Below, in pieces: positions 46,324 through 52,869 of a DNA stretch of 64,000 nt (position 1 is the stretch's first letter; each line of letters begins with the position of its first letter). The stretch is taken from assembly GCA_002215675.1 (NCBI GenBank), contig NGFH01000009.1, positions 62,001-126,000 of the forward strand, in the 5' to 3' direction. This DNA comes from Bacteroidetes bacterium 2013_40CM_41_45. Lineage in GTDB: Bacteria; Bacteroidota; Bacteroidia; AKYH767-A; 2013-40CM-41-45. Position numbers and translations under genes: made by a program. Under the pieces are notes generated by a model. That model worked only from the letters and a program-made list of their open reading frames with translations. It did not search any database and was not told the origin of the DNA.

Positions 46324-48282
46324 TTATCCAGCATTCACTTCCTCGAATGAGGCAATCTTCTCCTCAATTTCCTTCATCACATAATCCCTGAACTCCTCCA
46401 CCTTTTTCACGCCCAAATCCTCGCCTCCATGTTTTCTCACAGAAACAGTTCCGGTTTCCTGCTCTTTTTCGCCAACAATCAACATAAACGGAAATTTTTT
46501 GACCTCCGCATCACGTATCTTTCTACCCACTTTTTCAGGTCTTTCGTCAACGAGGGCGCGAATATCTGAATTATTAAGCAAGGTACAAACTTTTTTTGCA
46601 TAGTCCATATAGTGGTCGCTTACGGGTAGAATGATGACCTGCTCCGGCGCCAGCCACATGGGGAAATTACCTGCACAATGCTCAATTAAAAGGGCAACAA
46701 AGCGTTCCAGCGAGCCAAACGGAGCTCGGTGAATCATGACTGGCCGGTGCTTTTTATTGTCTGAACCGGTGTATTCCAGCTCGAATCTTTCAGGAAGATT
46801 ATAGTCGACCTGTATGGTACCCAGTTGCCATTTCCTGCCCAAGGCATCCTTAACCATAAAGTCCAGCTTGGGGCCATAGAAAGCTGCTTCGCCAATTTCA
46901 ACGACTGTTTTCAAACCTTTTTCCGCAGCCGCCTCTATAATGGCTTTTTCTGCTTTATCCCAGTTTTCATCAGAGCCGATATACTTCGCTTTATTCTCGG
47001 GGTCGCGCAATGAAATCTGTGCGGTGAATTCCGTAAGGTCAAGTGCACGAAAAACATATAGCACAAGGTCGATTACTTTAATAAACTCTTTCTTCACCTG
47101 GTCGGGGCGGCAGAAAAGATGCGCATCGTCCTGTGTAAATCCTCTCACTCGTGTAAGTCCGTGAAGCTCTCCGCTTTGCTCGTAACGGTAAACTGTTCCG
47201 AATTCTGCCAGGCGCACGGGAAGGTCTTTGTATGAATACGGTTTGCTTTTATAAATCTCGCAATGATGCGGGCAGTTCATCGGCTTCAGAAAAAATTCTT
47301 CGCCTTCTGCAGGAGTGCGTATTGGTTGAAAAGAATCCTTCCCGTATTTTTCGTAATGTCCTGAAGTAACGTACAACTGCTTGTTGCCGATATGCGGAGT
47401 TACCACAGGAACGTAACCGGATTTAAGCTGCGCTTTGCGAAGAAAGGATTCCAGTCTTTCACGAAGCATAGCTCCTTTGGGAAGCCAGAGGGGAAGGCCC
47501 AAGCCCACCTTTTCAGAAAATGTAAACAGCTCCATTTCTTTTCCAAGCTTGCGGTGGTCGCGCTTCTTTGCTTCTTCCACCATGACAAGATATTCCTGCA
47601 ACAGACTCTGCTTCGGAAATGTTATTCCATAAATTCTTGTGAGTTGCTTTTTAGTTTCATCCCCTCTCCAATATGCTCCTGCAATATTCAGAAGTTTCAC
47701 TGCCTTAATATAACCCGTATTCGGAATATGAGGGCCGCGGCAGAGGTCAGTAAAATTTCCCTGCGTGTAAAAAGTAATCTGCCCGTCTTCAAGGTCTTTT
47801 AATAAATCCAGCTTGTATTCATCCCCTTTTTCTTCGAAATATTTTATGGCATCTCTTTTAGAAACCTCTTTCCTTGTATAGGTGTTTGACTGCCTGGCTA
47901 GCTCCAGCATTTTATCTTCAATCTTTTTAAAATCATCTGAAGAAATACTGTTCTTTCCCAAATCAACATCATAATAAAATCCTCCTTCAACAGGCGGACC
48001 AATACCAAACTTAACACCCGGGTAAAAAGACTCCAGCGCCTCTGCCATAAGGTGTGCCGAAGAATGCCAGAGTGTTGCCTTCCCATCGGGGCTATCCCAC
48101 GTAAGCAATTCAAGAGTCGAGTCTTCGGTAATGGGGCGTGTTGTATCCCACAGCTTTCCGTTCACTTTTGCCGAAAGCACATTGCGCGCAAGCCCCTCGC
48201 TTATGGATTTTGCAATATCCATAGCCGTAGTTCCTTCAGGATACTCACGCACTGCCTTATCGGGAAAGGTTATTTTAATCAT
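46324..48282 (-). CDS. thrS: threonyl-tRNA synthetase
   Basis: 652 residues from ATG 48282 ([11 protein letters not shown]), the family start. An 18-codon upstream extension to 48336 is open but is made of repeat sequence and is rejected. Domains in order: TGS (1-65), editing SAD domain with [11 protein letters not shown] (near 75) and a second His in the later CRGPH motif, the class II catalytic core with [11 protein letters not shown] and FTQDDAHLF, and the anticodon-binding domain (about 545-652). ThrRS charges tRNA-Thr and edits Ser. First gene of the thrS-infC-rpmI-rplT operon. Confidence 0.97.
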
Positions 48283-48289
48283 GGGGGCG

Positions 48290-48297
48290 CAAAGGTA
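48290..48297 (-). promoter_or_regulatory. -7 box of the thrS operon
   Basis: TACCTTTG on the minus strand matches TAnnTTTG exactly. Its end is 7 bp from the ATG at 48282, so transcription would begin at or within a base or two of the start codon. The -33 region overlaps the REP-like hairpin at 48315-48335. Confidence 0.55.
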
Positions 48298-48314
48298 ATA
48301 TTTAGAGCCGAAGG

Positions 48315-48335
48315 TGCTGACCGTTAGCGTCAGCA
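48315..48335. repeat. REP-like hairpin TGCTGAC-N7-GTCAGCA
   Basis: Seven-bp arms around a seven-base loop (CGTTAGC). The same arms occur at 52374-52394. A heptad array begins at the very next base (48336). It lies in the thrS promoter region. Confidence 0.8.
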
Positions 48336-48380
48336 TTTGAAGTTTGAGGTTGGATGGATTTTAAAAAGATTTGGATTTGA
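48336..48380. repeat. heptad array (TTTGAAG/TTTGAGG type) next to a REP-like hairpin
   Basis: TTTGAAG, TTTGAGG, TTGGATG, GATTTTA, AAAAGAT, TTGGATT in a 7-bp register, decaying to the right. Confidence 0.7.
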
Positions 48381-52186: not shown

Positions 52187-52261
52187 GGGATGTTAGCTCA
52201 GTTGGTTCAGAGCACTAGCTCGACAAGCTAGGGGTCACTGGTTCGAGCCCAGTACGTCCCA
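52187..52261 (+). tRNA. tRNA-Val (anticodon GAC)
   Basis: 75 nt with a complete cloverleaf. The acceptor stem is GGGATGT/ACGTCCC with one U-G pair. The D stem is GCTC/GAGC, the anticodon stem is CTAGC/GCTAG around TCGACAA, and the T arm is ACTGG-TTCGAGC-CCAGT. The loop gives GAC at 34-36. Position 33 is C rather than the usual U, which is unusual. No CCA is encoded. Confidence 0.9.
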
Positions 52262-52297
52262 CATTAGCAGGATGTTTACCTGTCCAGGCTTCAGATT

Positions 52298-52417
52298 ATG
52301 GATAGGTTCAGAGCATCCCACAATACTGCGGGAGGGTCACTGGTGCTGACGATGCGCAAAGCGCATATCAGCATGCTGACTGAAAACGTCAGCATTCGAG
52401 CCCAGTACGTCCCACCA
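52298..52417 (+). pseudogene. broken tRNA-Val-like copy interrupted by a double hairpin
   Basis: It shares three exact blocks with the adjacent tRNA: GGTTCAGAGCA (52305-52315), GGGTCACTGG (52334-52343) and TTCGAGCCCAGTACGTCCCA (52395-52414), followed by CCA. The anticodon arm is replaced by TCCC-ACAATACTGC-GGGA, and the acceptor 5' end and D stem are lost. A 51-bp insertion sits exactly at the stem/loop border of the T arm. A functional tRNA is very unlikely. Confidence 0.8.
52344..52394. repeat. 51-bp double-hairpin insertion of the TGCTGAC/GTCAGCA family
   Basis: Two hairpins in tandem. The first has TGCTGA and TCAGCA outer arms (52344-52373) with inner ATGCGC-AAA-GCGCAT. The second is TGCTGAC-TGAAAAC-GTCAGCA (52374-52394), the same arms as at 48315-48335. 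The first eight and last eight bases are also complementary (TGCTGACG/CGTCAGCA). Confidence 0.85.
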
Positions 52418-52482: not shown

Positions 52483-52869
52483 ATGCACAATAAGGTTCCT
52501 TTTGATTTTGTTTTAGAGTCTTTGCTTCCTTCAAATCCGAAAATAAAACCTATGTTCGGGTGCTTTGCTGTGTACGTGGGAGAAAAAATAATGCTCGTTC
52601 TTCGCAACCGGCAAAACCACGCTGAAGCAAATGGTGTTTGGATAGCAACAAAGAAAGAATATCATGCTTCCCTAAAGAAAGATTTTCCATTTATGCGCTC
52701 TGTTTATATTTTATCCGAAGGCAAAGCAGAAACAGAATGGCAAATGCTTCCGCTCGATGCAGATGATTTTGAATCCTCGGTAATAAAAGCGTGTGAATTT
52801 ATTTTACGCAATGACGAACGTATCGGAAGAATTCCGAAGCCAAAAAAGAAAAGGAAAAGTAAAGTTTAA
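52483..52869 (+). CDS. TfoX/Sxy N-terminal-like conserved protein
   Basis: 128 residues, no signal peptide. The block KPMFGCFAVYVGEKIMLVLRNR resembles the first strands of the TfoX N-terminal domain (MFGxxxVYxxxK). NGVWIATKKEYHASLKKDFPFMRSVYIL and a basic tail RIPKPKKKRKSKV match a Bacteroidota-specific group. TfoX proteins regulate competence in Gammaproteobacteria, but this short form has not been linked to that. It converges with the PorE-like gene, 13 bp apart. Confidence 0.75.
   Translation: MHNKVPFDFVLESLLPSNPKIKPMFGCFAVYVGEKIMLVLRNRQNHAEANGVWIATKKEYHASLKKDFPFMRSVYILSEGKAETEWQMLPLDADDFESSVIKACEFILRNDERIGRIPKPKKKRKSKV

Follow-up and report, generated by a model that had tools for sequence, protein, structure and literature searches.

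A hairpin-bearing second copy of a tRNA-Val gene and its possible link to small tRNA-associated GIY-YIG nuclease genes

Comparable elements described so far

Among the described systems closest to the one reported here is that of REP and REPIN sequences with their RAYT transposases: short dispersed palindromes, often paired and bearing a fixed flank, which are apparently moved in trans and of which a few copies lie beside the mobilising gene. In our case too dispersed palindromes stand side by side, at 13 places in one genome, but the gene is of the GIY-YIG rather than the Y1/HUH type, TTC stands in the flank where REPINs have GTAG, and the loops of tRNAs are preferred. As Di Nocera et al. set out in 2013 (PMC3733652), RAYT–REP pairs are established; the same paper describes CGTC-tagged REPs. 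Our palindromes resemble the latter in having no RAYT partner and in holding GAC/GTC in their stems; this likeness need not mean kinship, and the consensus differs, the stems in that paper starting with AT and having CCA tails (PMC3733652). The main text of the RepRanger paper (PMC12306157) contains neither the word “nuclease” nor the word “transposase”. Among open-licence PMC papers, we found none in which GIY-YIG genes are connected to tRNA copies or to REP palindromes.

Free-standing GIY-YIG homing endonucleases, of the Seg type, are known from phage T4. The genes described below resemble them in being small GIY-YIG genes that lie between other genes, in encoding the catalytic domain (PF01541, E 1.1e-17) with its conserved residues (Y, Y, G, R, H and E, each retained in 52 to 54 of the 54 members examined), and in that their lineages seem to track the target site, not the host; unlike the Seg genes, they are accompanied by duplicated copies of the target and by palindromes, and no DNA-binding domain besides the catalytic one was found in their roughly 80 aa. 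UPF0213 proteins, which we take to be COG2827, provide the best sequence match among solved structures (PDB 1zg2, E 4.8e-8, followed by 1ywl), but the solved members are named merely hypothetical proteins, and we found no description of a tRNA-linked subclade. Finally, integrative elements use the 3′ end of tRNA genes as an attachment site. With these our loci share an intact tRNA at one end and a duplicate of its 3′ part at the other; here, however, there is no recombinase, the whole spans no more than a few hundred bp, and the duplicate has a palindrome within it.

The altered tRNA-Val copy and its counterparts

Over the window (the whole stretch of 64,000 nucleotides that was analysed), ARAGORN and Rfam found no tRNA other than an intact tRNA-Val, which is followed at once by a second copy (Table 1). 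A sequence-only reading of this DNA had noted three exact tRNA blocks in that copy, a different stem in place of the anticodon arm, a double hairpin between ACTGG and TTCGAGC, and a CCA behind the copy that the intact gene lacks, and all of this holds: the blocks found by repeat search measure 11, 11 and 21 nt, and the insert at 52344-52394 is exactly 51 nt (30 + 21) long and sits precisely at the G53/T54 junction. The copy is longer than that reading had stated, however, since a diverged 5′ acceptor block and foreign D-arm sequence are also visible, making it near-full-length and altered in three arms. The fold of the copy stretch beats those of nearly all shuffles (z -3.3; 1 of 200 shuffles equally good). 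Only 42 nt separate the intact tRNA from the first exact block, which leaves no room for a recombinase gene.

Table 1. Features in the window around the intact tRNA-Val gene and its second copy
Feature	Position	Strand	Basis
Single palindrome of the window family, then TTTGAA; overlaps the upstream end of the 670-aa ORF 46324-48336 on the minus strand (presumably threonyl-tRNA synthetase)	48315-48335	+	pattern search
Intact tRNA-Val, anticodon GAC	52187-52262	+	ARAGORN; Rfam RF00005, 63.8 bits
Second tRNA-Val copy, near-full-length, all three arms altered	52269-52417	+	exact blocks and global alignment
Block of the copy that answers to the 5′ acceptor strand, diverged, AGGATGTT	52269-52276	+	repeat search, global alignment
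D-arm region of the copy: foreign sequence with short CCTG/CAGG palindrome	52277-52304	+	global alignment; weak, one case
Exact block GGTTCAGAGCA, 11 nt = tRNA positions 18-28	52305-52315	+	repeat search, global alignment
Anticodon arm replaced by TCCC..GGGA hairpin TCCCACAATACTGCGGGA	52316-52333	+	sequence; layout shared with Val copies L143, L187, L320
Exact 11-nt block GGGTCACTGGT	52334-52344	+	repeat search
Exact block GGGTCACTGG = variable region and 5′ strand of T-stem	52334-52343	+	repeat search
First hairpin of paired palindrome, 30 nt, TGCTGACG..ATCAGCA	52344-52373	+	sequence, folding
Second hairpin TGCTGACTGAAAACGTCAGCA, 21 nt	52374-52394	+	folding; one of the pattern’s 22 genomic places
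21-nt exact duplicate of tRNA 3′ part from T54 on, TTCGAGCCCAGTACGTCCCAC	52395-52415	+	repeat search
CCA after the copy	52415-52417	+	sequence; intact gene has CAT there

Retention of acceptor-end and T-arm sequence, with CCA next to it, might suggest an intron-like hairpin that is spliced out of a tRNA gene, or an alternatively processed tRNA. We regard this idea, which the sequence-only reading had suggested checking, as hardly credible: because the anticodon and D arms are altered too, removal of the T-loop insert yields no normal tRNA, an intact gene adjoins the copy, and Rfam at gathering thresholds finds no intron family in the window. The encoded CCA was considered as a functional feature and rejected; it is probably due to chance, as no CCA follows any of the other broken copies printed in our genome survey. 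We consider it likely that what we see in the altered copy is a tRNA-Val gene no longer alive, the relic of a tRNA-targeting mobile element that combines a GIY-YIG gene with palindromes and resembles REPINs or free-standing homing genes; because the copy contains no GIY-YIG gene, it would represent a non-autonomous or deleted form.

The copy looks like a lineage-specific gain: in other genomes 22 tRNA-Val(GAC) loci could be tested, and a copy reaching 12 nt was absent from all of them (one further locus, cut 3 nt past the tRNA, is outside the 22). At tRNA-Val(TAC), one of six loci (L320) has a 14-nt copy, with its anticodon arm replaced by TCCCGAT..ATCGGGA. Synteny searches through the neighbouring ORF 52483-52869, presumably TfoX-like, led to eight loci in relatives, all of them without a tRNA and none an empty site; in genus g14, where tRNA-Arg(CCT) and tRNA-Asn were examined for empty sites, the matches broke off or the gene content was different, so that a clean empty site came from neither approach. 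The one usable difference is that of a same-genus pair, which has tRNA-Arg(CCT) without element or copies in G023 and with them in G016, but 4.6 kb of other genes stand there in G023.

The same genome (G000; 3.38 Mb, 11 contigs, with genes and relatives that point to Bacteroidota) holds further broken copies. We surveyed 50 distinct tRNAs, none of them on contig C4, for exact copies within 900 bp: with a minimum length of 12 nt, 14 of the tRNAs had a copy, and with a minimum of 14 nt, 12 had one. Judged by eye, a clear hairpin marks the break in 11: Thr-GGT, Arg-TCT, Trp, Met, Gly-CCC, Arg-CCT, Val-GAC, Arg-CCG, Leu-TAG, Pro-GGG and Ser-TGA. As in the window, the anticodon arm has given way to the hairpin in the Thr, Trp and Leu copies, and the same double hairpin lies at G53/T54 in the copies beside tRNA-Arg(TCT), tRNA-Gly(CCC) and tRNA-Pro(GGG). 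For Arg(TCT), the paired hairpin, 87% identical to the window insert, is followed by TTCGA and 21 nt of the tRNA 3′ part are duplicated; for Gly(CCC) it is again followed by TTCGA, and the 27-nt duplicate extends beyond the tRNA end. Hairpin copies at other tRNAs, which the sequence-only reading had proposed to look for, therefore recur at three, and the objection that there are none near other tRNAs fails. Contig C4 itself carries three tRNA gene clusters and three larger GIY-YIG genes, and may be a large phage or plasmid that brings tRNAs of its own.

We extended the survey of breaks to 99 tRNAs, a biased sample in that the 50 from this genome were joined mostly by tRNAs from GIY-YIG loci. 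A copy of at least 14 nt was found near 42, and in 34 of these the break has the end of a perfect stem of at least 6 bp no more than 3 nt away, vs 73 of 670 random positions. Of the 42 breaks, 34 fall in loops or at the borders of helices and 8 inside stems (by hand count, loop and border classes make up about 33 of 76 tRNA positions); eight are exactly at T54. Further copies have hairpins of other types at the anticodon arm and the D-loop, and single copies can carry two or three (L167, L187). Upstream of the hairpin, tRNA sequence was significant in 10 of 20 copies tested, implying that the hairpin was inserted into, or replaced part of, a longer tRNA copy there; it was not significant in the other 10, implying that the extent of the duplication varies.

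These data bear on a simpler account, in which a tRNA gene was duplicated in tandem and decayed in the ordinary way, with the hairpins serving as transcription terminators. Tandem duplication of tRNA genes is indeed common, and hairpins 3′ of genes often terminate transcription. The hairpins described here, however, lie inside the copies and at one junction in different tRNAs, up to two or three in a single copy, and copies that have a hairpin predominate; nor would decay alone be expected to leave an exact 3′ part of 20-27 nt right behind the hairpin at repeated tRNAs. We therefore judge this account very unlikely.

Small GIY-YIG genes beside tRNA genes

The association with a nuclease, absent from the sequence-only reading, appears at tRNA-Pro(GGG) of the same genome (L012), where the intact tRNA is followed about 17 nt later by an 81-aa GIY-YIG ORF, a paired palindrome of the window type and, last, 21 nt duplicated from the 3′ part of the tRNA, starting at T54. 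The order is the same, with other hairpins, at tRNA-Ser(TGA) and tRNA-Arg(CCG), the ORF being degenerate in the latter case. In a distant relative (G048, apparently contig JACPRZ010000002.1), two hairpins and then a small GIY-YIG gene lie between a 5′ half of tRNA-Thr and the intact tRNA-Thr. A related order is seen outside the closer relatives, on a Cyclobacteriaceae contig at tRNA-Leu (L043) and a Parcubacteria contig at tRNA-Tyr (L022); no hairpin was found at the break of either copy. The window palindrome family adjoins one of the five small GIY-YIG genes of the genome, that of L012; three others lie beside other hairpins (L014, L015, L020), and a search of L013 for the family found none. 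L013 (1430-1830, G000:C10) is a small GIY-YIG gene without a tRNA, with a repeat of the CATTGCGAGCGAAGCGAAGCAATC type on both sides.

We surveyed 94 small GIY-YIG loci from 61 genomes: the 5 of this genome, 29 best-per-genome matches and 60 further ones among the matches listed. L151 and L184, with two listed matches each, were counted as one apiece, G048:C4 was handled separately as L009, and at least six listed small-frame places were omitted, their tRNAs unseen (G039:C401, G038:C246, G036:C60, G048:C31, G023:C24 and G057:C26). Among the matches listed, 41 of the 94 loci have a tRNA within 500 bp, 36 of them within 250 bp; none of 21 UvrC controls, from the same Pfam family, has a tRNA within 500 bp. 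All 41 genes, again among the matches listed, lie on the strand of the tRNA, which is upstream in 35 cases and downstream in 6.

This uniform orientation could also point to a role at the RNA level, with the protein a tRNA-cutting toxin and the copy its decoy, or the copy a structured RNA that guides the nuclease, kept in either case because it functions. The anticodon-arm hairpin layout that recurs in Val copies from different genomes, and the exactness of the copies’ 3′ part, would agree with this; but many copies, the window’s included, have no GIY-YIG gene nearby, and the altered arm varies widely from copy to copy. We find such a role improbable.

The protein tree, which has few columns and many open forks, contains 90 rows: loci cut at a contig end with uncertain gene position (L110, L120, L123, L125) and broken or short frames (L137, L157, L187) were left out, and L009, L022 and L043, picked because of their tRNAs, were added. 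Among these rows, taken from the matches listed, one clade of 33 has no tRNA-adjacent member, whereas the other, of 57, has 43, and BLAST finds tRNA fragments in 7 of its 14 remaining rows. Labelling the tree by tRNA requires 23 changes (mean 32.9, minimum 29 in 300 shuffles), and labelling it by host family requires 21 (shuffle mean 22.3, minimum 16). The lineages of this very small nuclease thus seem, from these sequences, to follow tRNA type rather than host family. The dN/dS ratios of three close tRNA-linked pairs (0.06-0.09; L115/L131, L159/L177, L180/L186) indicate purifying selection.

The recurrent arrangement of tRNA, hairpin and GIY-YIG gene points to a little-known mobile element that lives in tRNA genes. 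In our best reading of these layouts, the element would comprise a GIY-YIG gene of about 80 aa, flanked by the intact tRNA on one side and by a whole or partial second copy on the other, with palindromes in the loops of the copy. Such a tRNA-linked clade would explain why hairpin-broken copies, passed over by tRNA finders, occur at about one in four tRNA genes here (12/50).

Palindromes, the TTC flank and a possible mechanism

The genome contains 22 instances of the pattern TGCTGA-N4..12-TCAGCA and none of its reversed control. Partners in the double palindromes include TCCTGAC..GTCAGGA and TCGAGAC..GTCTCGA; two of the doubles (L281, L007) were identified by eye. CGTC is present inside the palindrome stems, and the triplet after the foot is TTC in 10 of the 13 double copies, including 6 of the 9 outside tRNAs. 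T-loops, too, usually begin with TTC. Together these point to a targeting rule of the kind that the sequence-only reading had suspected: the junction does recur precisely, although the rule appears to be one of sequence (TTC) more than the purely structural stem/loop border proposed there. Judging by these flanks, TTC could be either the insertion target or a part of the element itself.

A paired palindrome with a short fixed flank, dispersed in this way, is REPIN-like. It could be a REP/REPIN of the usual kind that depends on a RAYT (Y1/HUH) transposase for its movement; the broken tRNA copies would then be tolerant landing sites and the GIY-YIG genes bystanders. A Y1_Tnp gene of RAYT type is present in the genome, but the only one found (L331, G000:C1:282186-282527) has an in-frame TAA and stands beside hairpins of its own (CAGTTGGCTGAAGCCAACTG, CCGTCAGCTTTAGCTGACGG); the window palindrome family, which as in REPINs might have been expected to flank it, was not found in this 3.3-kb locus. 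A RAYT as the mobiliser is accordingly not supported here. A RAYT would also leave unexplained the position of the GIY-YIG gene between tRNA and broken copy and the tracking of tRNA type, and overall we consider this origin unlikely.

Returning to a tRNA-targeting GIY-YIG element, we propose that a nuclease, its own or one acting in trans, would cut at or near a tRNA gene, and that repair would duplicate all or part of the tRNA and leave the nuclease gene on the tRNA’s strand, where the tRNA promoter could drive its transcription. Paired palindromes, independently mobile like REPINs, would then enter at the TTC offered by T-loops, other palindromes would enter the anticodon and D loops, and selection would retain one intact tRNA. 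Purely hypothetically, cuts placed where single and double strand meet in a tRNA-shaped single strand would fit the preference for borders; they would also fit the kinship with Slx1 that Dunin-Horkawicz et al. (PMC1564403) discuss for some prokaryotic GIY-YIG proteins. A point against the model is that the intact tRNA adjoining the nuclease gene ought to be cut as well.

A wider proposal, about which we are somewhat more doubtful than confident, is that a large class of palindromic repeats in bacteria owes its mobility to small GIY-YIG nucleases, which would be its missing mobilisers: one clade would have specialised on tRNA genes, recognising the folded single strand of the tRNA or the TTC motif of its T-loop and leaving palindrome-studded copies, and another would travel with dispersed REP-like repeats. 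Were this so, one nuclease of 80-100 aa together with hairpins would constitute a new transposition unit. GIY-YIG genes linked to palindromes are candidates for the enzyme of palindromic repeats without a RAYT.

On public contigs, mostly from Sphingomonas, Methylococcales and Gallionellaceae, small GIY-YIG genes unlinked to tRNAs (L023-L100) are flanked by a common repeat of the CCTTCGACAAGCTCAGGACGAACGG type. This repeat lies within 400 bp of 56 of the 78 loci, at 1.79 per kb near them vs 0.11 per kb farther away, with the motif written after the loci had been seen; the small protein of these loci is a candidate enzyme for RAYT-less REPs. Small GIY-YIG genes also often lie within a few hundred bases of contig ends (G004, G009, G010, G016, G020, G022, G053), where repeated sequences tend to be found in short-read assemblies.
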